From IMG/VR virus record IMGVR_UViG_3300033273_000460, positions 43,771-107,770 of that record: 64,000 bases of DNA, one strand, 5' to 3'. Positions 31,287-52,302 of the stretch are shown here, piece after piece (the first letter of the stretch is position 1; every line of letters starts with the position of its first letter). A model generated the notes under the pieces. The model made no database searches. It saw only the letters and a program-made list of their open reading frames with translations, and was not told where the DNA came from. Made by a program: the position numbers and the translations under genes. This stretch comes from a virus.

Positions 31287-31305
31287 TGTATAGTTATATT
31301 TGTGG

Positions 31306-31313
31306 CATAAATA
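31306..31313 (+). promoter_or_regulatory. Late promoter-like CATAAATA before the second fibre
   Basis: CATAAATA lies 26 bases before the ATG of the second fibre in a 53-base gap, with one mismatch to the late consensus. The spacing resembles that before gp48. Confidence 0.6.
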
Positions 31314-31339
31314 ACATAATAATGTGGAGTTAAAGAAAC

Positions 31340-32794: not shown

Positions 32795-32808
32795 TCGGAG
32801 AATAACAA

Positions 32809-35240: not shown

Positions 35241-36045
35241 AAACGGACAGGGCTTTTTAACCTTTGCACACAACACACCAGATGTTGATTATGTCAACAT
35301 GGCATATCTGTTGGCATTGAGCATAAAGCGCAGTTGCAGTATCAACAACTTCAGTGTTGTAGTTACAAAAGGCACAATGTTAACAGATGCACAACGTGAT
35401 GTATTTGATCATGTGATAGAAATACCTACCACACCTCTATTCTACAGCGAGTGCCTTGCTTGGAACTTGACACCCTACAAGGAAACATTTAAACTAGAAT
35501 GTGACATGTTGGTTCCGCGCAGCATTGACCATTGGTGGAGTGCATGTAGACTCAGTGATGTAGTGTTAACCACATGTGTTAGAAACTACAAAGGAGAGAT
35601 TAGTGACAACAGGTTTTACAGGCGTTATTTTGATGCCAACAATTTGGTTGATGCTTATAATGGGTGTGTGTATTTTCGTTTCTCACAAGATAGCAAAACG
35701 TTTTTTGATACAGCACAATCTGTTTATCAAAACTGGGATCTATATCGCGACAGGGTGCTGGTTGGTAGTAACTATCCTAGTGCTGACACAGATGTTTGTT
35801 TTGGTGTTACCGCAGCACTTTTGGATATATTTTCCTGTACTCTGCCATTAGACTTTCCAACTTTTACACACATGAAAGGTGCGATAAACGGCTGGAAATC
35901 ACACATGGACTGGCGTGATGCAGTGCAATGGCACATTGATGATGAACACAATTTGTTTGTTGGCGGAGTTGCACAACAGTATCCTTTCCACTACTACCAA
36001 AAAGACTTTTGTACACCTGAATTGATTGCACACTATGAGTTTTAA
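35230..36045 (+). CDS. Glycosyltransferase-like protein, paralogue of the preceding gene
   Basis: A 271-residue protein with a TTG start overlapping the previous gene by 11 bases. FLTFAHNTPDVDYVNMAYLL parallels the opening of its neighbour, and TPYKETFKLECDMLVPRS (about residues 79-96) takes the place of the D-x-D strand, with E-C-D. A later DTDVCFGVTAAL block may be the second acidic motif. Two adjacent paralogues suggest sequential transfer steps or a heteromer. Assignment is by motif only. Confidence 0.5.
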   Translation: MQPKNGQGFLTFAHNTPDVDYVNMAYLLALSIKRSCSINNFSVVVTKGTMLTDAQRDVFDHVIEIPTTPLFYSECLAWNLTPYKETFKLECDMLVPRSIDHWWSACRLSDVVLTTCVRNYKGEISDNRFYRRYFDANNLVDAYNGCVYFRFSQDSKTFFDTAQSVYQNWDLYRDRVLVGSNYPSADTDVCFGVTAALLDIFSCTLPLDFPTFTHMKGAINGWKSHMDWRDAVQWHIDDEHNLFVGGVAQQYPFHYYQKDFCTPELIAHYEF

Positions 36046-36313
36046 CAACAAATACGGACTAGAATTTAGAATAACCTACAACGATGCAGGAGAACTAACC
36101 AGCGACAAAATTACTGCACGACCAGAAGAGGTTTGGGAACAGTCATATATAGTTGTAGAAGAACATTTTAGCAAACGACCTGGTCACAGAGTTGTAGATG
36201 GTTCTCTCGTAGAAATTGATACCAGCATACACATATATCACAAACCTGCACGTGGTATATTGATCAACAACAATCCATATTTTTGCAAAGAGGAAATCAA
36301 TGACGCAAGTTGA
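36035..36313 (+). CDS. Small hypothetical protein (92 residues)
   Basis: Starts MSFNNKYGLEFRITYNDAGE. The ATG at 36035 is preferred over a TTG nine bases earlier. It is beta-rich with several aromatic residues (WEQSYIVVEEHF, HIYHKPARGILINNN). No family is recognised. It overlaps both neighbours by about a dozen bases, so it is part of the coupled operon. Confidence 0.5.
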   Translation: MSFNNKYGLEFRITYNDAGELTSDKITARPEEVWEQSYIVVEEHFSKRPGHRVVDGSLVEIDTSIHIYHKPARGILINNNPYFCKEEINDAS

Positions 36314-37205
36314 TGTAGCAGATCTAGACTGTATATTTCTCACCTATTATGAACCCAAGCGAGAAGAGTTTTGGGCACAGATCAGCAACATGGTGCCGTG
36401 GGCAAAACGTGTTGATGGTGTTAAAGGATCAGATGCAGCACACAAAGCAGCAGCAGATGCCAGCGACACAGAACGTTTTGTGTTAATTGATGGAGACAAT
36501 TTGCCTGAAGAACGTTTCTTCAATTTGGTTCTTGACATACCAGAAAACATGGCAGACTGTGTGTTCCGTTGGAAAGGACGCAATGACATCAACGGATTGA
36601 TGTATGGCAATGGTGGACTAAGTTGTTGGACTAGAGAGTTTGTCAACAACATGCGCACACACGAAAACACAGATGGCACAGATGCTACACTGGTAGAGTT
36701 TTGTTTTGATAACAAATATCTTCCAATGAACAATTGCTACAGCACCAGTTACCCCAACGGTGATGAGTATCATGCATGGCGTGCAGGATTTAGAGAAGGT
36801 GTTAAACTGTGTTTGGACAGAGGTGCAAAACCTCCAGTGGACAACTTTCCGTGGAACCTGCACCATGTCAACAGAGATCACTTGAGCATTTGGCATAACA
36901 TTGGACGTGATGCGGACTATGGCGAACATGCTATCCAAGGTGCACGTTATGGCACATACAAACTTATGTGTACAGAGTGGGATTGGACTGAAACACAAGA
37001 CTTTGATAAACTAAAAAACATCTACGATGAATGGCAGCAAGACAACTGGGATCAAACCATACTAGCAGCACGTCTTGGATTGGAGATACACGAATACACT
37101 GCAGAACAAAGTGCATTCTTTAAACATCACATGCAACGCACCTATCACGAACATGATGCAATGACCACAGAAATTGAGCTGATACGAAAGGCAGAAGGTT
37201 GGTAA
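36300..37205 (+). CDS. Glycosyltransferase-like protein of the AKRVDGV family
   Basis: A 301-residue protein. DCIFLTYYEPKREEFW, VPWAKRVDGVKG (about residues 32-43) and TERFVLIDGDNLPEERFF (about residues 57-74) give a GT-A-like pattern with a D-G-D motif. The same arrangement (CPRAKRIDGVNG, then TEWFLNVFAK) occurs near the C-terminus of the six-repeat protein at 56.6-58.9 kb, so the two share a domain. YHAWRAGFREGVKL here also corresponds to YETWRTAFREAVKL there. Probably cytoplasmic; substrate unknown. Confidence 0.55.
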   Translation: MTQVDVADLDCIFLTYYEPKREEFWAQISNMVPWAKRVDGVKGSDAAHKAAADASDTERFVLIDGDNLPEERFFNLVLDIPENMADCVFRWKGRNDINGLMYGNGGLSCWTREFVNNMRTHENTDGTDATLVEFCFDNKYLPMNNCYSTSYPNGDEYHAWRAGFREGVKLCLDRGAKPPVDNFPWNLHHVNRDHLSIWHNIGRDADYGEHAIQGARYGTYKLMCTEWDWTETQDFDKLKNIYDEWQQDNWDQTILAARLGLEIHEYTAEQSAFFKHHMQRTYHEHDAMTTEIELIRKAEGW

Positions 37206-38113
37206 TTGATTTAACAAAGTACTGTGGTAGTGTTAGACATTGGAATACACACCTACTAGCATTAGAAATTGCACAAAATAAAAATAGATCAATTGAATTT
37301 GATCTAGCACACGAGCATTGGGATGTTGATGTTAATGGAATACACAGTGTAATACAGGACTGTTTTGTTAATTTGAATATCAAACAACCTATAGTATATG
37401 CACATGACCGCAGACGTTCAATCTCTAATTATTACAAATACATGCTAGATTGGAAGTATAATCCTTGTACCAAAATTGGATATGGTCAATTTTTTGGCAG
37501 ACCCACATATGAAAGATTGTATTGTCATCACAAACATCTCAATTGGCGCCATCGTGCGTTAGGTGTTGCAACTTTTCATTTCTGCCCAGATGGTTTAAAT
37601 GCACACAACTGTGATTTTGTAGAATTTCTTTGGGAACAACCCGAAAAATGGGCTAGTCTTAAAAGTTCTGGCTTGCCTTATGCAGATATAGAATGTAAAT
37701 ACGATGAACACGGTGCCCTTGCTAACCACGGTGTTGATCATACCGATTATGATAATTTGAAACAAGCATATAAAAAAATATGTGCAGAAGTTGTGTGTGA
37801 AACTAACACCCAGGGTAAAACTTATTTTATAACCGAAAAAACACTGAGACCAATGCTAAATGGTTGTATACCTTTGATAATATCAAATGCAGGATATGAG
37901 AGCTATCTAAAAAGTTTAGGTTTTGACCTGTTTGATGATGTGTTAGACAAAAGTTATGATAAGAATACAGGTGCAATAAGGATTGAAAAAGTTTATCATG
38001 TTCTCGAAGATATACTTGTAAACAAAGACAAGTTGTGGTTGAAACAGTTATCCAACAGATTACAAAACAATATAGAACGAGCAACAAGTTACATACAGGA
38101 AAATATTGTATGA
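37199..38113 (+). CDS. Glycosyltransferase-like protein with TEKT motif (GT10-like)
   Basis: A 304-residue protein with a TTG start, AT-rich. FITEKTLRPMLNGCIPLIIS (about residues 208-227) followed by YLKSLGFDLFDDVLDKSYD marks it as one of four relatives in this window. The (V/I)(T/S)EKxxxP block resembles the donor-binding motif of GT10 fucosyltransferases. Other members share an upstream RPHR motif, here replaced by DRRRSISNYYKYMLDWK. It overlaps the next gene by ATGA. Confidence 0.55.
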   Translation: MVIDLTKYCGSVRHWNTHLLALEIAQNKNRSIEFDLAHEHWDVDVNGIHSVIQDCFVNLNIKQPIVYAHDRRRSISNYYKYMLDWKYNPCTKIGYGQFFGRPTYERLYCHHKHLNWRHRALGVATFHFCPDGLNAHNCDFVEFLWEQPEKWASLKSSGLPYADIECKYDEHGALANHGVDHTDYDNLKQAYKKICAEVVCETNTQGKTYFITEKTLRPMLNGCIPLIISNAGYESYLKSLGFDLFDDVLDKSYDKNTGAIRIEKVYHVLEDILVNKDKLWLKQLSNRLQNNIERATSYIQENIV

Positions 38114-39069
38114 AGTGTGGAGCATTTGATAGCGGATTGTCAATACATCCAGATGGAAAAGTAAGTCCTTGTTGTGTGTTTGATCACAATTATTTTCAAG
38201 ACTTGCATGAGTTGGATTGGAATGATCCATGGTTAGATTTACGTGACGGCAGAGGTTGCGCCGCTTGCAAATTTAAAGGTAAAACATATCGAGACAGTTT
38301 CGATGATTTCTTAAATGACAGTTATAAAGTTAGACATCTTGACATTAGAAATAACAACTTGTGTAATTTAGAATGCAGTATATGCAACAGCTATTACAGT
38401 AGTAAATGGGCTGAAAGATTAGGCGAGCAAAAATTTATAAGCACAGAATTTAATATAGATTTATCAAGTGTAGTGTCTATATATTTTGCAGGCGGTGAGC
38501 CATTGTTAAATCCTACACATTGGAAAATACTAGACAGTATACCTCATCCAGAAAGAGTGTCTTTGCAATACAGTACCAATGGTTCTGTTACAAGAAAAAT
38601 TCAAAAGTATTGGCCAAAATTTAGAGATGTATTAGTGTGCGCAAGTATGGATGCATATGGTCAGCTTGGTGAATATTTAAGGTATGGAACAGACTGGAAA
38701 AAATTTGAATCTAATCTAGCCATAATGTCAGAGTATGCAACTGTGAAAATTGTACCTACAGTCAGTGTTTTAAACATTTTTCATCTTGAAAGTTTGGTTA
38801 ATTGGAGTAAGTATGAAATAGAATGGAACTGTTTAACAGGTCCAGATTATTTGTGTGTAAGTGTGCTTCCAACAGAATTAAAAAAACAAATACCGTATGT
38901 ACCAGATGGTGTTGATCAACTACAACAACTTTTAGAAATAGATAGTAGTTATTTATTTCCGCATACAATGAGCTTTGTGCTATTACAGGACAAGATAAAA
39001 GGTACAGATGTTTGGAGTTATCTGCCTTTTGAAAAATATGCAATACAGGAGTATATGCAAAAGAAATGA
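38110..39069 (+). CDS. Radical SAM protein with N-terminal SPASM-like cysteines (no. 1)
   Basis: A 319-residue protein, the shortest of six relatives. The SAM-binding 4Fe-4S motif is C85-x3-C89-x2-C92 (LCNLECSIC), followed by FAGGEPLLNP for SAM binding. Before the core lie Cys3, Cys21-22 (GKVSPCC) and Cys50/Cys53 (GCAAC), which match SPASM/twitch-type auxiliary cluster ligands but stand at the N-terminus. ATG 38110 overlaps the preceding stop (ATGA) and removes an unconvincing 25-residue extension. Such enzymes start radical chemistry on peptides or sugars; the substrate is unknown. Confidence 0.8.
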   Translation: MKCGAFDSGLSIHPDGKVSPCCVFDHNYFQDLHELDWNDPWLDLRDGRGCAACKFKGKTYRDSFDDFLNDSYKVRHLDIRNNNLCNLECSICNSYYSSKWAERLGEQKFISTEFNIDLSSVVSIYFAGGEPLLNPTHWKILDSIPHPERVSLQYSTNGSVTRKIQKYWPKFRDVLVCASMDAYGQLGEYLRYGTDWKKFESNLAIMSEYATVKIVPTVSVLNIFHLESLVNWSKYEIEWNCLTGPDYLCVSVLPTELKKQIPYVPDGVDQLQQLLEIDSSYLFPHTMSFVLLQDKIKGTDVWSYLPFEKYAIQEYMQKK

Positions 39070-40427
39070 GTGATTATTACAAAGATGCACAGGTTGCACA
39101 ACAACGGTTAGCAGGCATAAGTGACAGTTTCTGTTTGGCCAAATGGAAACAGGTAAGCCTACATTTGACCACAGGACACACCAACAGTTGTTATCATCCT
39201 CCACTGCATCGTATACCCATAGAACCACTTGCTGACAATCCAAGTGCATTGCACAACACTGAACACAAAAAGCAGAGCCGCCGTGAAATGATGGCAGGTG
39301 TAAAGTGCAGTGATTGTCAATACTGTTGGAACATTGAAGCACAAGGCAACATGAGTGACCGTCACTATCGCAGTGGTGAGCGTTGGGCTATGGAAAGTTT
39401 TGAGGATATTGTAAACAATCCACAGGCAGATGTCAACCCTAGTTATGTTGAAGTTAACTTTAACCATGCATGCAATCTAAAGTGCAGTTATTGCAGTCCA
39501 CAGTTTAGCAGCACATGGGAACAGGAAACAAAAGAACATGGTGCATGGCCTACCAGCACACCACACAATGATCCAAAGCACTTTACAGGTGAACGGCGTC
39601 CTATTCCCAACAGAGAGCACAACCCATACAGAGAAGCATTCTGGCGTTGGTGGCCAGACCTGTATCCAGACCTCAAACACTTTCGCATGACAGGCGGTGA
39701 ACCCTCAATGGATCCCAACACCTATCGTGTGTTTGACTATGTGCTGGAAAATCCAAAAAGTGATCTACACCTAAACACCACCAGTAACTTTAGTGTGGAC
39801 CAACGTGTGTGGGAAAAATACAAAGGCTATGTGCAACGGCTGTGCAAAGGAGAACAAATTGAACACTTTATGCAGTTTGTTAGTTTAGACACATGGGGTG
39901 CCCAAGCAGAATACATACGACATGGACTAGACTTTGAACTAGCGATAAATAGATGTGAAGAGTTTGTTCGCGATGTCCCCTATCGTAGCAGTCTAACGTT
40001 CATTATAACAATGAATAATTTGAGTATACTTTCTCTCAAAAAACTATTAGAATATATTGTACACTTACGCAAAACCTACACAGACACATACCAACGTGTA
40101 TGGTTTGATACTCCACTGTTGTACACTCCAGACTGGCAAAGCATGCAGATACTGCCTATGGAGTTTCAAATAGTAATGCAAGAATGTATACGCTACATGG
40201 AAGACAACTTGCACGACATGCATGGATTCAAGGACTACGAAGTGTTAAAAATGAAGCGTGATTTAGATTGGATGCTACAAGGCACCACAGATGTAGAACG
40301 CAAACGTGGAGACTTCTATAGATTCTTTAGTGAACATGATCGCAGACGCGGCACAAACTTTTTAGAGACATTTCCTGAAATGGAACAGTTTTGGAGACAG
40401 TGTGAATATTTTAGTAACAGGCAGTGA
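39066..40427 (+). CDS. Radical SAM protein with N-terminal auxiliary cysteines (no. 2)
   Basis: A 453-residue protein. The core motif is C136-x3-C140-x2-C143 (ACNLKCSYC), with MTGGEPSMDPN as the SAM-contact GGE. The N-terminal set is C23, C42 (SCYHPP) and C81/C84/C87 (CSDCQYCW). A block HNTEHKKQSRREMMAG precedes the last cysteine group. It is closely related to no. 3 (subfamily with the CxxKW start and CxHPP motif). The ATG overlaps the preceding stop (ATGA). Confidence 0.82.
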   Translation: MSDYYKDAQVAQQRLAGISDSFCLAKWKQVSLHLTTGHTNSCYHPPLHRIPIEPLADNPSALHNTEHKKQSRREMMAGVKCSDCQYCWNIEAQGNMSDRHYRSGERWAMESFEDIVNNPQADVNPSYVEVNFNHACNLKCSYCSPQFSSTWEQETKEHGAWPTSTPHNDPKHFTGERRPIPNREHNPYREAFWRWWPDLYPDLKHFRMTGGEPSMDPNTYRVFDYVLENPKSDLHLNTTSNFSVDQRVWEKYKGYVQRLCKGEQIEHFMQFVSLDTWGAQAEYIRHGLDFELAINRCEEFVRDVPYRSSLTFIITMNNLSILSLKKLLEYIVHLRKTYTDTYQRVWFDTPLLYTPDWQSMQILPMEFQIVMQECIRYMEDNLHDMHGFKDYEVLKMKRDLDWMLQGTTDVERKRGDFYRFFSEHDRRRGTNFLETFPEMEQFWRQCEYFSNRQ

Positions 40428-41220
40428 TGGTTTTCTCGGCAAACACACAGTACAATATTTGCGCAGCAAAGGTCACACTGTAACTGCACATAATACAGAT
40501 GTGTTAGATGGATTACCAGAACACACATATGATGTAGTATTTCATTTTGCTGCTTATGTAGGCGGTCGCAAAGGAATTGAAAATAATACCTGGCTAGTTG
40601 CTAAAAATATTGAAATAGACAGAACTGTTTTTGAATGGGCAGAAACACACTGTGGGAAGATAGTATATCCTAGTAGTTGTGCCGCATATCCTTTGTGGAC
40701 ACAAACAAGCACAGATATTACAATGAAAGAAAATTTGCCATTGGATAGTGTGTATGATATTTATGGTCTAAGCAAAGTAACTGCTGAACGTATGTTAAGG
40801 TACACTAAAATAACAAGTAACATAGTGCGCATTTTTAGCAGTTATGGGCCAGATCAAACATTAGATTATCCTTTGCCTAGCATCATTGCAAGAGCAAAGC
40901 AAGGTGAATGTAGTGTATGGGGTACAGGCACACAGACTAGAGATTGGGTATACATTGATGATGTATTGCGTGTGTTTGAATATTTGCTTACAAATGACGT
41001 AGGTGTATTAAATATTGGCACAGGCGTTGCTACTAGTTTTCACGACTTAGCACAAACTATATATCGTTGTATACACGGAATTACTATACCTGTTAGCGTA
41101 ACCGCATCCGAACCCGAAGGCGCAAGCCATAGATGTGCAGATATTACACTGTTACAGAAACTAGGGTTAGAACCAAATGTTACCTTAGAACAAGGAATAT
41201 ACAGATGCTTAAAACAATAG
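40402..41220 (+). CDS. NAD-dependent sugar epimerase/dehydratase (GDP-fucose synthase-like)
   Basis: A 272-residue extended short-chain dehydrogenase with a GTG start overlapping the previous gene by 26 bases. NILVTGSDGFLG gives the Rossmann GxxGxxG (Gly7, 10, 13). YPSSCAAYP supplies the catalytic Ser/Thr region, and Y121-GLS-K125 is the YxxxK pair. HFAAYVGGRKGI and the ending RCADITLLQKLGLEP match GDP-4-keto-6-deoxymannose epimerase/reductases (Fcl/WcaG), though it is shorter than the roughly 310 residues usual there. It would supply an activated deoxysugar to the glycosyltransferases in the same operon. Confidence 0.8.
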   Translation: MNILVTGSDGFLGKHTVQYLRSKGHTVTAHNTDVLDGLPEHTYDVVFHFAAYVGGRKGIENNTWLVAKNIEIDRTVFEWAETHCGKIVYPSSCAAYPLWTQTSTDITMKENLPLDSVYDIYGLSKVTAERMLRYTKITSNIVRIFSSYGPDQTLDYPLPSIIARAKQGECSVWGTGTQTRDWVYIDDVLRVFEYLLTNDVGVLNIGTGVATSFHDLAQTIYRCIHGITIPVSVTASEPEGASHRCADITLLQKLGLEPNVTLEQGIYRCLKQ

Positions 41221-42200
41221 GATTAACATTTCCTAAATCTAGTCAATGGCATACAGATCAAATTGCACTTATGCAAAGCCTAGGAACACAAATTGAGGAC
41301 AAGTTTCCAGATGCAAATAATGTTTTGATCAACATGACATGGTTTGGGCCACAGTTTGAAAATAATGAATACGATAAGTTTTTAGAGTATGCCAGTACTA
41401 CCCAGATAGATAATCTTTTTTTGCTTGCAAGTGAAGATCCTTGTTTTTTTAATCGAGAGGAAACTTTTAATTTTATTGCACTGAGTGAAGCTGTTAACAG
41501 TTATTTGTTAGGTCACTTTGATAGCGATTACAACTTTAACTTTCATAATCTTGTACTTCCTAAATATTTTTATCCCTATACTGAAGACCAAATCATAATG
41601 AAAGATCCTAAATTTGTTTTTATTTGTTACAACAGAAAGCCTAGGCCTCATAGGACAAAGTTGGTTGATCTATTAGATAGTAGTTATCTAAGTAGCTATG
41701 GTGTTATAACACTAGGAGATAACCGTACACTAGGAGAATCTGTTGACGATATTGGTGTAGAAAACCAATGGTGGCCAGAGGAGTATGGTATACCACATGA
41801 CATACACAGTTTAGGTAGACTAGATGTATGGCAAAATCACTTTTTAACAATAGTCAGTGAAACAGACTATGAAGACATGTTATGGACATTTGTTACCGAA
41901 AAAACTTGGAAACCTATAATAGGATTAAGACCTTTTGTAATCAATGGCCAGACTGCAGTTTATAAATGGTTAACTGATAATGGGTTTCGTACATTCAATA
42001 AGTATTGGAGCCACATTGATTTAGAAACATGCAATATAGATGAAATTCATCCTAATATTTGCAGTGTTATTGAATTTCTCAAGACTCAAGATCTAAAACA
42101 AATGTACATTGACATGTTGCCAGATTTACGTTATAATAAACAACGCTTTTATGAATTCAGTAGCGAGCAAAAACATAAGATGGAGAATTTATTTGGATAA
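41205..42200 (+). CDS. Glycosyltransferase-like protein with RPHR and TEKT motifs
   Basis: A 331-residue protein. FVTEKTWKPIIGLRPFVING (about residues 226-245) and, upstream, FICYNRKPRPHRTKLVDLLD (about residues 137-156) are the two signatures of the four-member family in this window. The latter region may bind the acceptor or phosphates; the former resembles GT10 donor sites. ATG 41205 with AAGGAAT upstream is chosen over an earlier in-frame start that would lie deep inside the epimerase gene. It is AT-rich compared with the radical SAM genes around it. Confidence 0.55.
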   Translation: MLKTIGLTFPKSSQWHTDQIALMQSLGTQIEDKFPDANNVLINMTWFGPQFENNEYDKFLEYASTTQIDNLFLLASEDPCFFNREETFNFIALSEAVNSYLLGHFDSDYNFNFHNLVLPKYFYPYTEDQIIMKDPKFVFICYNRKPRPHRTKLVDLLDSSYLSSYGVITLGDNRTLGESVDDIGVENQWWPEEYGIPHDIHSLGRLDVWQNHFLTIVSETDYEDMLWTFVTEKTWKPIIGLRPFVINGQTAVYKWLTDNGFRTFNKYWSHIDLETCNIDEIHPNICSVIEFLKTQDLKQMYIDMLPDLRYNKQRFYEFSSEQKHKMENLFG

Positions 42201-42855
42201 ATTTTTAATTTATTATGTAGCAGGAAGTGGCGGGCAATTTCTCACAAGTGTTTTTGCTAACCTAGTAGGAATCAATGTACGTCCTATTTTTAGTTTCAGT
42301 GGCAATAGTCATGATTTAGGAAAAGGAGCATGGCAAGGTTATGGTAGAGATATTTGCTTTTGTGGAGATCTCTGGGAATTAAATTACCGACCAGGTGCTA
42401 CAATTTACTACACACATTCTGGTGACATGAAAAAGTTTAAACAAGAAAATCCAGATTTTAAAATTGTATCGATTGATGTAGACGAGGAAGATTATAGAAA
42501 AGTAACAGAGTTGTATGTATGCAAAGCCTGGCCAGACATACTAAGAGATAATGATGGAGAATATGAAAAATGGAAAGGACCAGATTGGCCAGAGTGGGAA
42601 TACAAAGTAATACAAAAAAGTGAGATGGTAAAAAACGAACTTATAGATGCATTTTTACCCGACACATCTAATTGGATGAAAAACTACAACAAAGATGTTG
42701 TGGATGCGAAAATTAACTTTAAATCACTAATAGGAATAAGAGGAAATTTAGCAAAAGAGTGTGGCGAAATAGCTAACCGTCCTGTGAGCCAGACAGTCAT
42801 AAATCTTATTCAAGAATACCAGGACATCAATAGAAAGTTATACTTTGCAAACTGA
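42193..42855 (+). CDS. Hypothetical protein with Gly-rich loop
   Basis: A 220-residue protein beginning at TTG 42193 (MDKFLIYYVAGSGGQFLTSV); GGAG upstream supports this start. The N-terminal beta strand followed by AGSGGQFLTS looks like a P-loop variant of the sulfotransferase/kinase type but lacks the canonical GK(S/T). A later DFKIVSIDVDEEDYRKVTEL could be a strand and acidic motif. No family is firmly recognised. It lies between a glycosyltransferase-like and a radical SAM gene, so a small-group transferase would fit, but this is speculation. Confidence 0.45.
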   Translation: MDKFLIYYVAGSGGQFLTSVFANLVGINVRPIFSFSGNSHDLGKGAWQGYGRDICFCGDLWELNYRPGATIYYTHSGDMKKFKQENPDFKIVSIDVDEEDYRKVTELYVCKAWPDILRDNDGEYEKWKGPDWPEWEYKVIQKSEMVKNELIDAFLPDTSNWMKNYNKDVVDAKINFKSLIGIRGNLAKECGEIANRPVSQTVINLIQEYQDINRKLYFAN

Positions 42856-44164
42856 TCTAATATTCAAACATCAAGTACTTGAGAAATTGAGTCCAAGTTT
42901 CTGTGGTGCCAAATGGTACAACGCTACCATATGGCTTGGCAGCGGTATGACCACAAGTTGCCACCATCCGCCTGCACACTTGGTTGACATAGAACAAGTA
43001 AAACAAAATCCTAAACTGTTACACAACACTCCAGAGAAAAAAGAACAACGACGTCAAATGCAGTGCGGCGAGCGTCCGGGTGGCTGTGAATACTGCTGGA
43101 AACTAGAGGATATGGGTCCTAACTACATCAGCGACAGGGTGTACAAAAGTAAGATATATACTCAAGAGGAATTAAAAGATGCATTCAATACTCCAGCAGA
43201 TCAAGACGTTAATCTCATTACCCTTGAAATTGCCTTTGATAGAACATGTAATTTTGCTTGCAGTTATTGCAATCCCGCTTTTAGTAGCACATGGGTAAAA
43301 GATCTCAAAAACAACGGAAGTTACACAGATCTAGTCAGTGATGGTCGCAACCACTTTACACATACACATGACAGTGCGCAACTGTACAAATTTGGAGAAA
43401 CCAATCCATATGTAGAAGCATTTTTTAAATGGTGGGACAGTGATCTACACCGCACACTGCGTGAACTACGCATAACAGGCGGCGAGCCCATAATGAGTGC
43501 AGAACTGTGGAGACTGTTTGATTGGTTTAAGGACAACGTTGACAAATCACAGACCAAACTTGCTATTAACAGCAACCTAGGAGGCAAGGCAGAATTAATA
43601 GATAGATTGGTAGACTGTAGAAAACACTTGCCAAGTTTAGATGTATATACCAGTATGGAAGCTACAGGCTACAGTGCAGAATACATTCGTGATGGATTAG
43701 ACTTTGAACTATGGTGGAATAATATTCAAAAATTGCATAATGCAGACATTGACACACACTGTATGATGACAATAAATGCATTGTGCTTGCCAACACTGCC
43801 CGACATGATACAAAAAATACTAGATAAAAGAAACGAATTTGGCAAAGACTTTGCTACAATGAGTTATAACATACTACGTTTTCCCAGTTTCCAAAGTTGT
43901 TTGGTACTACCACAACACATCAAAGATGCATGTGTTGCAAGACTACAACAACTTGATTTGACCAACATGCAAGATTGGGAACATGGACAGTTAGACAGAC
44001 TTGTAGAATATTTGCAAGTTGTAGAAACACCACACAGTGAAAGTTTTGAAATGCCAAAACTGCACAATGACTTCAAACGTTTTTACACACAATATGATGT
44101 GCGACGAAATCACACATTTGCAAAGGCTTTTCCAGAACTAGAAGAATGGTACCAAACACTATGA
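42845..44164 (+). CDS. Radical SAM protein with N-terminal auxiliary cysteines (no. 3)
   Basis: A 439-residue protein with a TTG start overlapping the previous gene. The core motif is C135-x3-C139-x2-C142 (TCNFACSYC), then ITGGEPIMSAE. N-terminal cysteines are C20, C39 (SCHHPP), C74 and C81/C84 (GGCEYCW). HNTPEKKEQRRQMQCG corresponds to the same block in no. 2, so the two are paralogues. C-terminal features such as FKRFYTQYDVRRNHTFAKAF also match no. 2 (FYRFFSEHDRRRGTNFLETF). Confidence 0.82.
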   Translation: MQTDLIFKHQVLEKLSPSFCGAKWYNATIWLGSGMTTSCHHPPAHLVDIEQVKQNPKLLHNTPEKKEQRRQMQCGERPGGCEYCWKLEDMGPNYISDRVYKSKIYTQEELKDAFNTPADQDVNLITLEIAFDRTCNFACSYCNPAFSSTWVKDLKNNGSYTDLVSDGRNHFTHTHDSAQLYKFGETNPYVEAFFKWWDSDLHRTLRELRITGGEPIMSAELWRLFDWFKDNVDKSQTKLAINSNLGGKAELIDRLVDCRKHLPSLDVYTSMEATGYSAEYIRDGLDFELWWNNIQKLHNADIDTHCMMTINALCLPTLPDMIQKILDKRNEFGKDFATMSYNILRFPSFQSCLVLPQHIKDACVARLQQLDLTNMQDWEHGQLDRLVEYLQVVETPHSESFEMPKLHNDFKRFYTQYDVRRNHTFAKAFPELEEWYQTL

Positions 44165-45471
44165 GTGAACGCAACGACAAAATGAAAGAATACTACAGGA
44201 AGTATGACTACAACAGTCGTCGTCCTGTACACATAGATTCAGAAGATCTCACAGAAAAACAACGCTACCAATTGATGGAAAGTGATTACTTTTGTTTGAT
44301 TCCTTGGACACACATACACGGCTTTCCAACAGGCGAAGCGTATCCTTGTTGCTTGGGCGAAATGGATCACCCAATTGGAAACATGCGGGAAAATAGTTTA
44401 GAAGAGATCTGGAACGGTCCAGAATATGTTGAGATGCGTGAACGCATGCTTGCTGATAAACCTTGTAAACAATGCACACGCTGTTACGAGCAAGAAAAGA
44501 ATGGCTTCTTTAGTATGCGCAACAGTCACAACAAACACTTTGGACATCATATTGACAAAGTAGACCAAGGTATCAATCCAGACTTTGAAATTGTGTATTG
44601 GGACATACGTTTTAGCAATCAATGTAATTTAAAGTGTCGTAGTTGTGGACCAATGTTCAGCAGTTTATGGTACGACGATCATGTTAAAATGTATGGACAG
44701 AGTCCGGGACACAAACGCATAGAGTATGCAGGGCGCACCAAAACAGACATTTGGGAACAATTAGAACCTCAAATTGACAACATAGAACAGATTTATTTTG
44801 CAGGTGGCGAACCACTTATCATGCAAGAGCACTACAACATAATCAAAGAATTGGTGCGCAGAGAACGTTTTGATGTTAGATTGATTTACAACAGCAACTT
44901 CCAAAAACTTACCTACAAAGATCTAGATGTGCTAGAGTATTGGAAACTGTTTGAAAATGTATCAATTGGTGCAAGTCTAGATGCAATGGGACCACGTGCT
45001 GAACTCATACGCAAAGGCACAAGTTGGGATGAAGTCTTACGCAACAGAGAGCGTATGTTAGAAACCTGTCCTAACGTTGATTTTTATATCTCACCAACCA
45101 TGAGCATAATGAATGTGTTTCATGTGCATGACTTTCACAAAGATTGGGTCAACAGAGGCTTTTTAAAACACAGTGATCTCAATGTAAACATACTGCAATC
45201 ACCAGAATGGTACAGAGCAGATTGTTTGCCACAGCACATGAAAGATGATGCTATTGCACAAATACGTGAACACATGGATTGGCTAGAACCGCATGATACA
45301 GTGCGTCGTGCAATCAATGGATTTAACAGCACAATCACGTTCCTAGAACAAACTGACAACACACAACATCTACCCAAATTTAATGCTATGCGTAGATTGC
45401 TTGATGGTGTGCGTGATGAAGACTTTTACAGTGTGTTACCAGAACTAAAGGAACTTGAAACATATGCATAA
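44161..45471 (+). CDS. Radical SAM protein with classical SPASM signature at the N-terminus (no. 4)
   Basis: A 436-residue protein and the clearest example of the permuted layout. Residues 45-108 read like a SPASM domain: C45-LIPW, GEAYPCC (63-64), IGNMRENSLEEIWNGPEY, then C102/C105/C108. The SAM-cluster motif follows at C155-x3-C159-x2-C162 (QCNLKCRSC), with FAGGEPLIMQEH. SPASM normally follows the radical SAM barrel. The ATG overlaps the previous stop (ATGA). Anaerobic sulfatase-maturase or RiPP-maturase-like chemistry is suggested by family; the actual substrate is unknown. Confidence 0.85.
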   Translation: MSERNDKMKEYYRKYDYNSRRPVHIDSEDLTEKQRYQLMESDYFCLIPWTHIHGFPTGEAYPCCLGEMDHPIGNMRENSLEEIWNGPEYVEMRERMLADKPCKQCTRCYEQEKNGFFSMRNSHNKHFGHHIDKVDQGINPDFEIVYWDIRFSNQCNLKCRSCGPMFSSLWYDDHVKMYGQSPGHKRIEYAGRTKTDIWEQLEPQIDNIEQIYFAGGEPLIMQEHYNIIKELVRRERFDVRLIYNSNFQKLTYKDLDVLEYWKLFENVSIGASLDAMGPRAELIRKGTSWDEVLRNRERMLETCPNVDFYISPTMSIMNVFHVHDFHKDWVNRGFLKHSDLNVNILQSPEWYRADCLPQHMKDDAIAQIREHMDWLEPHDTVRRAINGFNSTITFLEQTDNTQHLPKFNAMRRLLDGVRDEDFYSVLPELKELETYA

Positions 45472-46636
45472 GTGTATACTGCCATGGATCAGCATAGAAA
45501 CAACTCCTACAGGGCGTGTTAGACCTTGTTGTTTGTATACACAAGAGTTGCCTGATATTGATCTAAACACTCACACACTGCAAGATGCATTTGACTCTAA
45601 ACCTATGCGTGACCTGCGTCGCAGTTTTAGACGTGGCGAAAAACCCGCAGGTTGTGAACGTTGTTGGATGGAAGAAGACGCAGGTAAAAAAAGCAAACGT
45701 GAATACATGTTAGAGAAGTTTAAACATGAACCTGTAGACTATACTAATAACAGTGGTACCAGTTTAAAGTTTCTTGATTTAAAATTAGGTAACATTTGCA
45801 ATCTTAAATGCAGAATATGCGGTACTTGGTCAAGCAGCAAATGGGGCCAAGAAGAAATTGACTACTACGAACCTGAGGGCGGAGGTAACATACAAAAACA
45901 ATGGATAAAGCAAGGACAATGGCCTCGTAAAAATCGCACTTTTTGGGAACACATGGATGAACTGTTACCAGACATCAAGTTTTTTGAATTTACTGGTGGT
46001 GAACCATTTTTAATTAAACAGCATTTTGATCTATTACAACGTGCAGTTGATGCTGGTTATGCCAAAGATATTGACATACACTACAACACAAACACCACAA
46101 AGTTTCCTGCTCAGCATGAACTGTGGAAACATTTCAAACATGTACAAATAGCATTCAGTGTAGACAACACAGGCAAACGTTTTGAATACGAACGCTATGG
46201 TGCTAAATGGCGCACAGCAAACACCAATATCAAAAAAATAAACAATCTAAGAGACAGTGGATATCCTATTTCAACACAGTTGTGTTGCACATGGAACCTA
46301 CAAAACATCTACTACATGGAAGAAATATTGACTTGGGCACATACCATGAACTTTGATGATATTCATTTTAATCTCATGCATGACCCTTGGGAATATGCGT
46401 TATCAAATACACCCAAGAGTGCAAAAAGTACGTTGATGCTTTATTTACAAAAGTGCCAAGTGAAATATCCGCAACACTCACAAGACATAGATGCACTTAA
46501 AAAGATTGTGATTGACAGTGTACAAGAAGATGCAGACGGCTTGCACAAGAAAATTCGTCGCACAGATCTATATAGAAATCAAAATTTTGCACAAACGCAC
46601 AGCAAAATGGCCAAGGCAATTGGGTATGAACGCTAA
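45464..46636 (+). CDS. Radical SAM protein with N-terminal SPASM-like domain (no. 5)
   Basis: A 390-residue protein; ATG 45464 overlaps the previous stop and places C4-ILPW at the very start. GRVRPCC (22-23) and GCERCW (64, 67) complete the auxiliary set. The core is C112-x3-C116-x2-C119 (ICNLKCRIC), with FTGGEPFLIKQH. It is closest to no. 4 and no. 6. The third consecutive radical SAM gene in a row, it suggests that two or three different clusters act on one substrate in sequence. Confidence 0.83.
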   Translation: MHKCILPWISIETTPTGRVRPCCLYTQELPDIDLNTHTLQDAFDSKPMRDLRRSFRRGEKPAGCERCWMEEDAGKKSKREYMLEKFKHEPVDYTNNSGTSLKFLDLKLGNICNLKCRICGTWSSSKWGQEEIDYYEPEGGGNIQKQWIKQGQWPRKNRTFWEHMDELLPDIKFFEFTGGEPFLIKQHFDLLQRAVDAGYAKDIDIHYNTNTTKFPAQHELWKHFKHVQIAFSVDNTGKRFEYERYGAKWRTANTNIKKINNLRDSGYPISTQLCCTWNLQNIYYMEEILTWAHTMNFDDIHFNLMHDPWEYALSNTPKSAKSTLMLYLQKCQVKYPQHSQDIDALKKIVIDSVQEDADGLHKKIRRTDLYRNQNFAQTHSKMAKAIGYER

Positions 46637-47603
46637 GCCCACAATACTAGTAAGTGAAAACAAAACAGTCTTTCAGACACCGTTCTTAGAACAAAAATGG
46701 GCACAGTATTTTAATGTTGAGATACTTGATACAAATAAAAATTATGATAAACGCTCAACAGTTGTTGTCAGCGACTGGATAGATGTAAATCAATCTACTA
46801 ATAGTAACGAATGTGTACTTGCAAACACAGGTATAAGGCATGTTATTGATCATTGCTGGGATAGCTGGGATAGTAGTTTAGACAACAGTGCAGATTTTAC
46901 AATTAGACCTAGAGATTTTATCCGAATAAATGAAAGCCTGTGTTATAAAAGTTTAGGTTATGATCAGTGTAAACTAAACAGTAATCCAACTAAAGATTTT
47001 TTATTATTAATGAATCTTGTGCGTCCACATCGAGATAATTTGTTGGATAGTTTAAAAGAATACGTTGAACATAATATTTACAGTTATGTAGGACGTGGAA
47101 TACCTTTACAAAATGCACAGGACATAGAATTTAACTCTAGTACATGGCAAAGATATACTGATCCGCATTGGTATACAGACACACGATTTAGTGTTGTAAG
47201 TGAAAGTATGATATATAATTTAGGAGAGCCAACAGAAAAGAATGATTACCGTTATGATGATGATATAAATGTAAGTGAAAAAACATACAAGCCCATGGCA
47301 TTTAAACATGCATTTGTGGTTCACGGGCAGCCTGGCACACTTGCAAGATGTAAACAGCTAGGTTTTGAAACTTTTGATCATGTCATTGACGAAAGTTACG
47401 ATAATGTTACTGATCATAACAAGAGATTAGAGTTAATAGTAAACCAAATTGAATTGTTGATTGCAGACAAGTCATTGCTAACAGATCCTATAAGTAAACA
47501 AAAAATACAACACAATTTTGAACACTTCTATGATGAAGGTATTGTTACAAATCTTTTTGTAACTCAAATAGTCAATCCACTGTTGGAGTTTATTGAGTCA
47601 TGA
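46626..47603 (+). CDS. Glycosyltransferase-like protein with RPHR and SEKT motifs
   Basis: A 325-residue protein. LLLMNLVRPHRDNLLDSLKE (about residues 136-155) and NVSEKTYKPMAFKHAFVVHG (about residues 218-237), followed by GFETFDHVIDESYD, are the family signatures. ATG 46626 is chosen because the upstream in-frame extension lies wholly within the preceding radical SAM gene. Base composition is visibly more AT-rich than in the preceding gene. Probably a cytoplasmic sugar transferase; donor unknown. Confidence 0.55.
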   Translation: MNAKPTILVSENKTVFQTPFLEQKWAQYFNVEILDTNKNYDKRSTVVVSDWIDVNQSTNSNECVLANTGIRHVIDHCWDSWDSSLDNSADFTIRPRDFIRINESLCYKSLGYDQCKLNSNPTKDFLLLMNLVRPHRDNLLDSLKEYVEHNIYSYVGRGIPLQNAQDIEFNSSTWQRYTDPHWYTDTRFSVVSESMIYNLGEPTEKNDYRYDDDINVSEKTYKPMAFKHAFVVHGQPGTLARCKQLGFETFDHVIDESYDNVTDHNKRLELIVNQIELLIADKSLLTDPISKQKIQHNFEHFYDEGIVTNLFVTQIVNPLLEFIES

Positions 47604-48262
47604 TTGGTGTAATTGGAAATGGCTTAATCAGCGGTTGTATACAAAACAGTATTGGTGTTGACAAGGTATTCACAAGTAAAAATATACACACTATTGGTGA
47701 AAACGAGTATGATGTTGTTTACTGTGCAGCACCAACTAGTAATAGGATTTGGGCAAGCAAAAATCCAGATCTAGATAAAAAAAGTGTACACAGTATTATC
47801 AACGAATGTACACTTGCTAATATCAAAAGATTTGTTCTAGTAAGCACTGGCGATACACAAATAAAGCCATGGACTACTTATGGTCAAAACAGATTAAAAT
47901 TAGAAAATTTTGTTAAACAACACTACAGTGACTATGGCATTATTAGATTACCTTGTTTGATACACAATAGCATTACAAAAAATTTATTATGGGATATAAA
48001 ACACAAGAAATGGCTAGATAAAATAAATCTTAATGTTACCAATCAATGGTTTGATCTCAACAACCTTGAAAATTATCTCAACGTTGAACAAGAATTTAAT
48101 GTATGCAGTGAACCTATTTCAAATAAAAAAATTATTGCACGTTTTGCTCATGAGATATTTGATTTGCTAGATGTATCTAAACCACACGAGTTATATAATT
48201 TAGAACCCTATAGTTTTACAACTGAAGAAATTTTTAGAAGCATAGAGAATTACCTAAAGTGA
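47600..48262 (+). CDS. Reduced NAD(P)-binding epimerase-like protein
   Basis: A 220-residue protein. IGVIGNGLISGCI supplies a Rossmann glycine motif, YDVVYCAAPTSNRIWA resembles the strand-4 region of sugar epimerases, and RFVLVSTGDTQ with the later YGQNRLKLENF occupies the place of the Ser and YxxxK catalytic residues. The Lys is replaced by Arg (Y-GQN-R). The C-terminal substrate domain is short. It may bind a nucleotide sugar without the usual chemistry, or be a reductase of a divergent type. It overlaps both neighbours by four bases. Confidence 0.5.
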   Translation: MIGVIGNGLISGCIQNSIGVDKVFTSKNIHTIGENEYDVVYCAAPTSNRIWASKNPDLDKKSVHSIINECTLANIKRFVLVSTGDTQIKPWTTYGQNRLKLENFVKQHYSDYGIIRLPCLIHNSITKNLLWDIKHKKWLDKINLNVTNQWFDLNNLENYLNVEQEFNVCSEPISNKKIIARFAHEIFDLLDVSKPHELYNLEPYSFTTEEIFRSIENYLK

Positions 48263-48825
48263 TTTATATTTGTGGAGATAGTTTTGCAACATCTGATGTT
48301 GAAAGCAACATCGTACCTTGGCATGAACAATTAGAATGTGTTAATCTCAGTCGTAAGTGTGCTACCAATCTACAAATAAGTCAGCAAGTAGATCATGCAA
48401 TTGCACATGCTAGTTTCGTTATAGTACTGTTTACAACTTGTGTAAGATTTGAATATAACGACGACAGTTATACACTACATAATTTAGACACAAGTAACTT
48501 AACCAACAAGCAAAAGCAGTTGGTAACTGAACATGCTAAACATTTTTTTAATTTAGACTTGGAAATTTATAGAAACAAGTGTATAATAGAAAGTGTATTG
48601 CAACGTTTGGTTGATAGTAATATACCATTTATTTTTGACCAGGGCGGGTTTGAACATACAAAGTTTGGTGCGGTGAACAAATACTTTAGTAAGTATGATC
48701 ATTGTCGTAGTCAATATAACCTATGGGATTATGGCGATAGTAAAACATACAGACCTTATTTTCATATCACAGATCAAACAATACACAACATGATAGCAGA
48801 ATATTACAATGAACAAACCCAATAA
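48259..48825 (+). CDS. SGNH-like hydrolase, divergent
   Basis: A 188-residue protein with a GTG start. IYICGDSFATSDVESNIVPW matches block I of SGNH hydrolases (G-D-S-F). A middle VIVLFTTCVRFEYND is in the place of the Gly/Asn blocks. The late HITDQTIHNMIAEYY has a His with an Asp four residues before it, a variant of the usual DxxH. If active, it would be an esterase, perhaps removing acyl groups from the glycan made by neighbouring genes. Confidence 0.5.
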   Translation: MIYICGDSFATSDVESNIVPWHEQLECVNLSRKCATNLQISQQVDHAIAHASFVIVLFTTCVRFEYNDDSYTLHNLDTSNLTNKQKQLVTEHAKHFFNLDLEIYRNKCIIESVLQRLVDSNIPFIFDQGGFEHTKFGAVNKYFSKYDHCRSQYNLWDYGDSKTYRPYFHITDQTIHNMIAEYYNEQTQ

Positions 48826-50074
48826 CCTGTGTATGGCACCATGGACACACACTTATCTCAGTCCGCAAACAGAACGGCGACTGTGTTGTGCTAGTCGAGA
48901 ACCTGCACAAAACTTCAAGCAGTATATAGACACTGCAGAAGGTACTAATGAATATGTTCCAAGCACACTAGAAGAATGGTGGAACGGTGAACACATACGT
49001 CGCATACGCACACAGATGTTAAATAATCAAGTGCCTCCTGAATGTGTGGTTTGTGATAAAAAACTACTAAACCAAGATGTATACAGAGACTATTTCAATC
49101 ATTTGTTTGCACACAAATGGCCAGAAGTTTTAGAAAGTACAACAGAATCTGGACATACTACAATGCAACCTGTAAGTTGGGACTACCGTTTTAGCAACCT
49201 GTGCAATTTCAAATGTCGTATGTGCGGCCCTATGCTGAGTAGCAGTTGGGAAACAGAGGCACGCAAACAAGGCAAAATAGAACCTTGGATGGAAAAAAGT
49301 GTAAAGAAAAGTATTGATAGTTTTCAAAAAGATACTGTAGAACAAGAGTTTGCTACTGCAGTTGAAGAACACAGAGTAGAAGAAATATATTGGGTTGGTG
49401 GTGAACCATTGATGTATGAACAACATTGGCGTTACATGCAACGTATAATAGAACTGGGAGATGGGCCAGGACTGTATGCACGTTACAACACAAACCTTAG
49501 CAGGATCAACTACAAAGGCATTAACCTCTACAGTGATATACTTGATAAGATCCGTGATTGGCAAATTTGTGCCAGCATAGATGGCACAGGCAGTATAGGA
49601 GAATACATACGCACAGGGCTAAACTACGAAGAATGGCTAGAATATTTTTGTCAAGGAATAAGTCACAGTCGCAACAGACGCATGATGCGTATAGATTTCA
49701 CTCTTACCACCCCCGGACTTTTTGAAGTTATAAATATCTGCAAGTTAGCAAAACAGTTAGATGTTGACATTCTTGCAAAGGTTACATTTGCCTTTACACC
49801 AGACATAGCAATGAGCCCATTGTTTCTGCCTAGAAATTTATTGGAGTCAGTGATTGATGATATATTACCCAACTGTGATAATGGCACGATGCACAACATG
49901 TTAACCACACTGCTAGACAGGCCTACATTTGAAGAGGAATATCCAGATCAATATCAGCAAGCAAGGATCGTAGGAAAAAAGCGCATGGATGCAATGGACA
50001 AATTGCGAGGCGGTATGTGCTTTGCTGACACACTTGATGCACAAACAAGAAAGTGGTGGAATGAAATCAGTTAA
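48809..50074 (+). CDS. Radical SAM protein with N-terminal SPASM-like domain (no. 6)
   Basis: A 421-residue protein. C8-MAPW, RRLCCAS (C26-27) and CVVC (79, 82) form the N-terminal auxiliary set; TLEEWWNGEHIRRIRTQMLN is the SPASM helix also seen in no. 4. The core is C132-x3-C136-x2-C139 (LCNFKCRMC), with WVGGEPLMYEQH. It is separated from the first five by a glycosyltransferase-like, an epimerase-like and an SGNH-like gene, repeating the mix seen earlier in the operon. Confidence 0.83.
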   Translation: MNKPNNLCMAPWTHTYLSPQTERRLCCASREPAQNFKQYIDTAEGTNEYVPSTLEEWWNGEHIRRIRTQMLNNQVPPECVVCDKKLLNQDVYRDYFNHLFAHKWPEVLESTTESGHTTMQPVSWDYRFSNLCNFKCRMCGPMLSSSWETEARKQGKIEPWMEKSVKKSIDSFQKDTVEQEFATAVEEHRVEEIYWVGGEPLMYEQHWRYMQRIIELGDGPGLYARYNTNLSRINYKGINLYSDILDKIRDWQICASIDGTGSIGEYIRTGLNYEEWLEYFCQGISHSRNRRMMRIDFTLTTPGLFEVINICKLAKQLDVDILAKVTFAFTPDIAMSPLFLPRNLLESVIDDILPNCDNGTMHNMLTTLLDRPTFEEEYPDQYQQARIVGKKRMDAMDKLRGGMCFADTLDAQTRKWWNEIS

Positions 50075-51149
50075 AGTTGTATTGAGAAATTATCAAACCA
50101 ATGAAACCTTAGACTACAACATAGTTCCCAATGATACCCAATTGGCCCAAGATTGGATGGCTGCATTAGAAAAAGATATTCTCAAAACAAATTTACACCT
50201 AGAAAAGAACTTTTGTTTTCACGGTTTCCCTTATACACAACGAACTTTGGAATTATTGTGTAGTGAATTAAATCGTCATATCTATAATATCAACACCAGT
50301 GGACTTGGTTACACCATTGAAGAATGGTTTGCTCCGGATGTTGTACGGTTTGGAGATGAATATCCTGTTGGAAACTATACAGACAACATGCGTAATCATG
50401 GCTTAAAAGTTAAACACAGTGTAATGAATCAACTGCACAATCATTTTGAGGTATTACAAGGAACTGTAGAACATCCAAGTGAGTATGCAAAGTTCATGTC
50501 ACCAGAAACTACATACGCAGTAAGACAGTTAAACAATATCTGCCATGAAATGGAAACTCTTGTATTAAGCCAACGCAAACTTGCTTACGACCCACACTGG
50601 GTACGTCCTAGTCAAATCACAACATTTCTACGATGTCCTCGGCATGATCTAACAGATGAACACAGACAAGGATTTATTGACAATGGGTATGACAGAGAAT
50701 TAGGCGGTGTGTACATGCACTGGTGTCAGATTGGTAAGACACTGATGGAAGTGTACAGAGATGAAGGTGCACCAGAACTCACAGATGCAGTGTGCGAGGC
50801 CATAACTCATTTGCAGTATTACAGCGGTGAGTTTGACATAGAATGGGCCAATGATGTAACATACACTAGTAATAATCCGTGGCACCGTGATGAAATAGAT
50901 GGTTTTACAAATTGGTTGTGTGAAAATAACCACGATCCACAGGATCCAAAACTAAGTCTAGGCTATTTAAAATTAGGTAGTGTAGATTTAAAAGGTTCTT
51001 TTGGTAGCGAAAATGGTCAGGACATTTGGCAGCAAATGGGAGATTATCTAGACATTTATCGCATTGAATGTGGAAATACCACAGCAACATACGACTATCA
51101 CTGGAGTGACACAGATCATGAACAACGACAATTGGGCGCACTAACATAA
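50061..51149 (+). CDS. Hypothetical protein of the accessory operon
   Basis: A 362-residue protein starting MKSVKVVLRNYQTNETLDYN. ATG 50061 is preferred over an earlier start inside the radical SAM gene. LAYDPHWVRPSQITTFLRCP near residue 175 and GSVDLKGSFGSENGQDIW near the end are the most distinctive stretches, and there are many Trp and His residues. No domain is recognised. It is followed by a 13-base gap, the only non-overlapping junction in the operon. Confidence 0.5.
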   Translation: MKSVKVVLRNYQTNETLDYNIVPNDTQLAQDWMAALEKDILKTNLHLEKNFCFHGFPYTQRTLELLCSELNRHIYNINTSGLGYTIEEWFAPDVVRFGDEYPVGNYTDNMRNHGLKVKHSVMNQLHNHFEVLQGTVEHPSEYAKFMSPETTYAVRQLNNICHEMETLVLSQRKLAYDPHWVRPSQITTFLRCPRHDLTDEHRQGFIDNGYDRELGGVYMHWCQIGKTLMEVYRDEGAPELTDAVCEAITHLQYYSGEFDIEWANDVTYTSNNPWHRDEIDGFTNWLCENNHDPQDPKLSLGYLKLGSVDLKGSFGSENGQDIWQQMGDYLDIYRIECGNTTATYDYHWSDTDHEQRQLGALT

Positions 51150-51162
51150 ACGAGGATCATTG

Positions 51163-52302
51163 ATGGACATAAGAATAAAAGAAATATTTCGCAAAGAAAG
51201 CAATAGGCAAAACAATACTGTTGAACTTATTGCCAGTGAAAACTTTGCAAGTGCTGATGTAATGGAACTTGTTGGTAGTATTTTTACCAACAAGTATGCC
51301 GAAGGTTATCCGGGCAAACGTTACTACAACGGTTGCGATCATATGGATGAGATCGAGCAACTGGCAATAGATCAACTAAAAGAAATCTACGGTTGTGAGT
51401 TTGCCAACGTTCAACCACACTGCGGTGCTAATGCCAACACTGCCATTTACCTAGCGTTCCTTAAACCAGGCGACCGTATACTTGGCATGGATCTAGCCAG
51501 TGGCGGACATCTAAGTCACGGTGCACCAGTTAACATCAGTGGTAAAGTTTATGAGGCACATCACTATGGTGTGGATGCAGATGGTTGGTTAAACTATGAT
51601 GACATTGAACAGCAGGCAGTAGAACTACAGCCTAAGATTATTGTAGCAGGTGCCAGTGCTTATCCTCGTCACATCAACTTTGCACGTTTTAGAAGTATTG
51701 CAGACAAAGTTGGTGCATACCTGCTGGTTGACATGGCACACTACAGTGGACTGGTTGCTGGCAATGCATATCCTAGTCCTGTTGAACATGCAGACTTTGT
51801 AACAAGCACCACACACAAAACACTGCGTGGACCTAGAGGCGGTTTTATACTGTGGAACAATCCAGACTTCACACGCAAGATTAACAGTGCAATCTTTCCT
51901 GGCACACAAGGCGGTCCACTGATGAATATCATTGCCGCAAAAGCACAGGCATTTATTGAAGCAAACACACCAGAGTTTGCAGATTATGCACGCCGTGTTG
52001 TGGAAAATGCACAAGCAATGTGTGAAGTTTTTGTAACAAATGGATTTAAAGTACAAACAGGTGGTACATGTTCACACATTATTCTAATGGACTTGAGTGA
52101 GTCTAAATACAGTGGGCGTGAGGCTGCAGACTTGTTAGAAGCAAATGGAATCACAGTAAATAAAAATGGGGTACCAAACGATCCACGTAGTTTTGTAGAA
52201 ACCAGTGGTATACGAATTGGCACTGCCGCAGAAACAACTCGAGGTCACGATGACGAATGGTTCAGAGACCTCGCCAGAAGAATTTGTGAGATATTAGCAT
52301 GA
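51163..52302 (+). CDS. glyA: Serine hydroxymethyltransferase
   Basis: A 379-residue PLP enzyme that converts serine and tetrahydrofolate to glycine and methylene-tetrahydrofolate. Family hallmarks are clear: ELIASENFAS (21-30), NKYAEGYPGKRYYNGC (43-58), the Asp of LLVDMAHYSGL (about 190) and the PLP lysine K219 in TSTTHKTLRGPRGG. It is about 40 residues shorter than bacterial GlyA (about 415-420). ATG 51163 has GAGG upstream. Product methylene-THF is the cofactor of ThyX, encoded at 59.9-60.5 kb. Alternatively it could serve the modification pathway. Phage-encoded copies are uncommon. Confidence 0.95.
   Translation: MDIRIKEIFRKESNRQNNTVELIASENFASADVMELVGSIFTNKYAEGYPGKRYYNGCDHMDEIEQLAIDQLKEIYGCEFANVQPHCGANANTAIYLAFLKPGDRILGMDLASGGHLSHGAPVNISGKVYEAHHYGVDADGWLNYDDIEQQAVELQPKIIVAGASAYPRHINFARFRSIADKVGAYLLVDMAHYSGLVAGNAYPSPVEHADFVTSTTHKTLRGPRGGFILWNNPDFTRKINSAIFPGTQGGPLMNIIAAKAQAFIEANTPEFADYARRVVENAQAMCEVFVTNGFKVQTGGTCSHIILMDLSESKYSGREAADLLEANGITVNKNGVPNDPRSFVETSGIRIGTAAETTRGHDDEWFRDLARRICEILA

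Follow-up and report, generated by a model that had tools for sequence, protein, structure and literature searches.

The stretch of viral DNA analysed here (the window, 64,000 nucleotides, positions 43,771 to 107,770 of IMG/VR record IMGVR_UViG_3300033273_000460) carries six open reading frames (ORFs) for radical S-adenosylmethionine (SAM) proteins between positions 38110 and 50074, the same coordinates at which an earlier reading of the letters alone (the sequence-only reading) had placed them. The 107.8-kb virus record is that of a T4-like phage, with a gp55-like late sigma factor, an SbcD-like nuclease and baseplate wedge and hub proteins; a near-identical cultured phage was looked for and none was found. 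The six ORFs are all on the plus strand, and each encodes a radical SAM protein with a predicted Twitch-type domain at its N-terminus: p1 (38110-39069), a short protein of 319 amino acids, p2 (39066-40427), p3 (42845-44164), p4 (44161-45471), p5 (45464-46636) and p6 (48809-50074). The start of p5 was taken as the ATG at 45464, as in the sequence-only reading, while the program-made ORF list gives a TTG at 45455. We refer to the orthologue groups of p2 to p6 as R2 to R6; p1 lies outside the fixed set described below and appears as R1 in the tree.

All six proteins passed the curated cut-off (170 bits) of the NCBIfam model NF033640 (N_Twi_rSAM) over most of the model, with scores of 182 (p1), 319 (p2), 299 (p3), 400 (p4), 327 (p5) and 291 bits (p6), the match of p1 covering only profile positions 105-392, the last three quarters. 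Membership of the radical SAM superfamily was indicated by the CxxxCxxC motif, invariant in all groups, and by matches to PF04055, which were above the cut-off in p3 to p6. In the phylogenetic tree, a superclade of CxHPP type (R2 and R3) was separated from a PCC superclade (R1, R4, R5 and R6) with a Shimodaira-Hasegawa-like approximate likelihood-ratio (SH-aLRT) support of 100, in agreement with the two subfamilies that had been proposed from the sequence, and the branch lengths indicated deep divergence between the groups.

The arrangement C1-x17/18-C2 ... C3-x2-C4 was found ahead of CxxxCxxC in six of six proteins: C3, C21, C50 and C53 in p1 (window positions 38116-38268), C23, C42, C84 and C87 in p2 (39132-39326), C20, C39, C81 and C84 in p3 (42902-43096), C45, C63, C105 and C108 in p4 (44293-44484), C7, C25, C67 and C70 in p5 when counted from 45455 (45473-45664), and C8, C26, C79 and C82 in p6 (48830-49054). 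In orthologue alignments built from IMG/VR contigs (groups R2 to R6, 67-94 distinct rows each), these four cysteines and the three of the SAM cluster were retained in 98.7-100% of the distinct rows of the five groups; all four N-terminal cysteines were present in 78/79 distinct orthologues of R2, 85/85 of R3, 78/78 of R5 and 67/67 of R6. A 67-row alignment of all groups had exactly those seven as its invariant or near-invariant cysteine columns, and the full pattern occurred in 438 of 449 distinct relatives, against 2.85 expected with shuffled N-termini. The claim that the additional cysteines stand before, not after, the SAM-cluster core in all six proteins was thus borne out. A normal C-terminal SPASM domain alongside, which would have spoken against it, was not seen: past the barrel, the orthologue alignments showed no group of conserved cysteines, the exceptions being isolated barrel cysteines and C446 in R2. 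The finer motifs held in part. The C-x2-PW/KW start is missing from p1, which opens C-GAF, and the PCC element from p6, a CC type that reads RLCC; the CxxC of the proposed CxxC(xxC) group stood, its third cysteine being confined to p2 and p4 and not conserved.

By profile comparison, the N-terminal segment is a Twitch-type domain whose order is swapped relative to that of BtrN, the radical SAM dehydrogenase of butirosin biosynthesis. When a profile of this segment was compared with all PDB chains, only BtrN was matched at E <0.01, in its C-terminal Twitch and with identical C-x17-C and C-x2-C spacing; with the full profile of the six proteins and their relatives, columns 12-84 aligned to the same part of BtrN (4m7t, residues 183-258, E 2e-8), supporting the domain permutation that had been suspected. 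The barrel and the N-terminus of the full profile also aligned to SkfB in swapped order, the part in the SkfB Twitch contributing only 3.8 bits. The Pfam SPASM model PF13186 matched the N-terminus above the cut-off in p4 (E 4.5e-14, residues 45-108) and p5 (E 2.2e-6), was below it in p1 and p6, and gave no match in p2 and p3. The AlphaFold2 model of p4 (mean predicted local distance difference test score, pLDDT, 95.7; predicted template-modelling score, pTM, 0.92) placed a hairpin at residues 52-61, a short helix at 80-84 and a longer one at 87-97 between the cysteines, followed by the CxxC, with the first barrel strand at 146. The BtrN alignment and this model together showed the cysteine and secondary-structure layout of a Twitch domain of BtrN/MoaA/SkfB type, with cysteines before and after a hairpin and two more after the second helix. 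The location C-terminal to the barrel was not shared, the domain being N-terminal in six of six.

Because only four cysteines are conserved and a single cluster is predicted, we infer a one-cluster Twitch rather than a SPASM domain: the seven-cysteine SPASM motif was absent and a two-cluster SPASM was rejected on that ground, so that of the SPASM-like domain of the sequence-only reading the general SPASM/Twitch type stands and the full SPASM does not. Four cysteines can hold zinc too, and the cluster is a prediction; that they bind zinc or are merely structural, with no auxiliary iron-sulphur cluster, is nevertheless highly improbable, given the profile homology to the BtrN Twitch with the same cysteine spacing and the SPASM matches above the cut-off in p4 and p5.

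The domain order as such is already catalogued. NF033640 describes an N-terminal Twitch and a barrel without a C-terminal SPASM, so the view that SPASM/Twitch domains are known only behind the barrel had to be abandoned, and an unknown architecture was rejected. NF033640 is one undivided model with no stated function; a literature search found no paper on the family, and the superclades and the five-enzyme set were not found in the searchable literature. BtrN shares the four-cysteine spacing and differs in having its Twitch at the C-terminus. The peptide and protein maturases SkfB, CteB and anSME are related through the barrel (the barrel profile matched SkfB and anSME, and CteB and anSME were the best PDB fold matches for p4), whereas their SPASM or Twitch is C-terminal, often with an N-terminal RRE, and SPASM holds two clusters. 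No close solved structure of the N-Twitch layout was found in the PDB, where matches were partial (best template-modelling, TM, score by query 0.38), and BFVD models from uncultured phages matched the greater part of p4, in most cases at TM 0.65-0.9. The SkfB Twitch has the same order of secondary structure as the p4 model and wraps back from the C-terminus beside barrel strand 1 (PMC6231123). A shift to the N-terminus would then presumably be easy. The permuted layout is a natural experiment on the requirements of an auxiliary cluster: if the N-terminal Twitch reaches the same place, spatial position would count for more than chain order.

A scan of viral sequences with p3 gave at least 600 stretches with a relative. 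Sets were counted in a sample of viral loci, 18 kb or longer, that surround the best relatives of p3, so these counts are conditional on R3. Of 57 such loci, all 57 contained R2 to R6 with their order unchanged, a figure that ignores the relatedness among them. The presence of p1 was variable in related loci. A carbamoyltransferase gene came after the set in 34 of the 34 loci with room for it, and a gene that we call f6, directly 3' of R6, in 48 of 53. In four other loci (L019-L022) the set was of another make-up: several copies of R4 type, R2- and R5-like members, no R3 or R6, and a carbamoyltransferase upstream.

A profile search, a check suggested in the sequence-only reading, also found the permuted architecture in cellular genomes. 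N_Twi_rSAM proteins above the cut-off were present in 55 of 192 genomes of the Bdellovibrionota, a phylum that includes predatory bacteria, with as many as nine or more in one genome, which is a large expansion, and 81 of 369 had a relative of R3 (E 1e-60 or better). Among 399 Pseudomonadota sampled, the sole R3 match (E 1e-40 or better) was a phage contig inside a metagenome-assembled genome (MAG). MAG matches assigned to Rickettsiales, Pelagibacter and Betaproteobacteria (L105, L106 and L109), in which R6 precedes R5, were likewise rejected as cellular, tail-fibre genes alongside marking them as phage contigs. On one Bdellovibrionota chromosome (L120), all five groups adjoin rplU-rpmA-obgE, identified by sequence; two others (L121 and L122) have sets near other housekeeping genes, and a further set (L126/L127), in which the R5 assignment is ambiguous, lies on a 2.66-Mb contig. 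Every orthologue clade of the tree had phage and Bdellovibrionota members. R3 (E <1e-100) and R6 (E <1e-60) occurred together in 8 genomes against 0.45 expected (hypergeometric 1.3e-10, phylogeny ignored), and in several of these the two genes were unlinked, lying on separate contigs or tens of kilobases from each other.

Next to R3 or in its vicinity, bacterial chromosomes repeatedly encoded a protein of about 300 amino acids that has an SDLDL-like motif and resembles a nucleotidyltransferase by eye (L120:15829-16791, L129:3350-4288, L131:9174-10103, L132:5913-6827 and L134:9840-10715); the two that were tested had no Pfam match.

What looks new is the set of five orthologues rather than the domain layout, and its sharing by phages and Bdellovibrionota is the more interesting finding. 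From synteny and co-occurrence, the five enzymes are probably one functional set, inherited together and acting successively on one product; that five divergent enzymes are kept together suggests successive steps. Radical SAM genes of T4-like aquatic phages have been described before, as cassettes that pelagimyophages carry in their host-recognition cluster, in the tail-fibre region and with genes of lipopolysaccharide type (PMC7029224); in the part of that paper available, and compared by description only, they are presented without an N-terminal Twitch or five orthologues. The paper also describes tail-fibre regions of marine myophages as hypervariable and differing by radical SAM cassettes (PMC7029224), as would be expected if auxiliary genes with no joint function had been picked up at random. 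Such random pickup is very unlikely for the present genes, however, because the five stand in order at 57 of 57 loci and R3 and R6 co-occur in bacteria, even if the loci were selected for R3 and relatedness was ignored in both counts. If the co-inheritance is real, this would be an unusually large set of radical SAM enzymes, five in fixed order in phages and together on bacterial chromosomes, and would point clearly towards new chemistry.

Among the genes around the set in the window (those given with window positions in this paragraph are on the plus strand), the only certain sugar-type neighbours were a member of the NAD-dependent sugar epimerase/dehydratase family, encoded between R2 and R3 (40402-41220; PF01370, E 2.4e-33) and the constant companion, a NodU/CmcH-type carbamoyltransferase (53256-54740; PF16861, E 1e-50; PF02543, E 1e-39). 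The product of f6 (50061-51149), a strongly conserved protein, was modelled with a pLDDT of 89.1 and a pTM of 0.87 and had no PDB fold match and no profile or family match; a metal site is suggested by its invariant residues (H126, E130, C161, H162, E163, E165 and D259). An iron-sulphur assembly protein of MIP18/PaaD/SufT type, a possible source of clusters (55251-55574; PF01883, E 1.5e-19), was seen in 8 sampled loci, and an FNR-type oxidoreductase near the set in 7 (for example L007:17477-18202).

Near R3 in Bdellovibrionota we found a family 1 glycosyltransferase (GT1), an ABC-2 exporter and an ABC ATPase (L131) and, elsewhere, a carbamoyltransferase, a DegT protein and an ABC-2-like transporter pair (L133); a sugar nucleotidyltransferase and a GT2 gene adjoin the set of L126/L127. 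In the cultured vibriophage K566, four N-Twitch radical SAM genes, one annotated as hypothetical, are interleaved with two GT8 genes (L135:8977-15713); K566 and K567, which both carry relatives, would provide a tractable test system. Because of these glycosyltransferase, nucleotidyltransferase, exporter and carbamoyltransferase neighbours, together with the GT8 genes of K566, we favour a surface glycan as what the set acts on. That radical SAM/Twitch enzymes tailor such a glycan in sequence has a slightly better than even chance of being right, substrate and chemistry being read from the gene company. The SAM cluster would cleave SAM to a 5'-deoxyadenosyl radical, which would abstract hydrogen from its substrate, a sugar (or a peptide). 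The Twitch cluster, by analogy with BtrN, whose auxiliary cluster is a suggested electron acceptor (PMC6231123), would accept the leftover electron, permitting oxidations or rearrangements. The five enzymes would probably work one after another on a single product, most likely a surface glycan of unusual kind or the nucleotide sugar from which it is built, encoded in the tail-fibre region of the phage and also by Bdellovibrionota; in the phage this product would change the surface of the host or be displayed on the virion. In some phages the FNR-type reductase (L007:17477) and the PF01883 genes may supply electrons and clusters. The broader proposal, an undescribed five-enzyme pathway of an uncultivated, abundant phage lineage and Bdellovibrionota, with serial N-Twitch radical SAM enzymes, a new-fold f6 in the phages and a glycan or peptide as product, is held more tentatively, at somewhat less than an even chance.

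Several points weigh against a glycan. Substrate, product and cluster are all predictions; the conserved phage genes that were first called glycosyltransferases got no profile support; three bacterial loci (L128, L130 and L134) had no recognised sugar genes near R3; and the proximity of sugar genes is given without a control rate for random genes. In addition, the PqqD-type (RRE) protein near R3 at L131 points to a peptide. The main rival is indeed that the five enzymes cross-link or epimerise one polypeptide, either of the ribosomally synthesised and post-translationally modified peptide (RiPP) kind or a tail fibre, which would agree with the peptide substrates of many characterised SPASM/Twitch enzymes (in part background knowledge), with SkfB and anSME among the barrel matches and with the position of the set after tail-fibre genes. 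We consider this unlikely, though a serious contender, since neither an RRE domain nor a PqqD gene was recognised at the phage loci, no short conserved ORF presented itself as a precursor (the look covered ORFs above 50-60 amino acids), the conserved neighbours of 104 and 120 amino acids are unlike leader-core precursors, and the company is one of glycosyltransferases and carbamoyltransferases. In other pathways, phages employ carbamoyltransferases as well as radical SAM enzymes of QueE type, and the present proteins have weak similarity to the QueE profile, both of which would fit hypermodification of nucleotides or DNA bases against restriction. The genes sit in the tail-fibre region, however, not with those of replication, and bacterial chromosomes carry the same set, in several places with sugar genes next to it, making such a role quite improbable.

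Tail-fibre-like genes starting at 30627, 31340 and 32809 form the upstream flank of the set (30627-33747, plus strand; by synteny, with PHROG tail-fibre or virion matches for 31340), and are followed by three genes conserved by synteny, at 34458, 35230 and 36300 (34458-37205, plus strand). The glycosyltransferase identity of these three and of the genes at 37199, 41133 and 46512 had been assigned by eye and was dropped when Pfam, PHROGs and PDB profiles gave no support. An amidinotransferase at L049:19915 was dropped as well, having no Pfam support, and a PAD_porph match at L131:2715 was weak and below the cut-off. Between f6 and the carbamoyltransferase lies a serine hydroxymethyltransferase (51160-52302; PF00464, E 4e-148), which was not among the conserved families. 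Further upstream, in the structural region, window positions 14175-27713 are occupied by a single ORF of 4512 amino acids.

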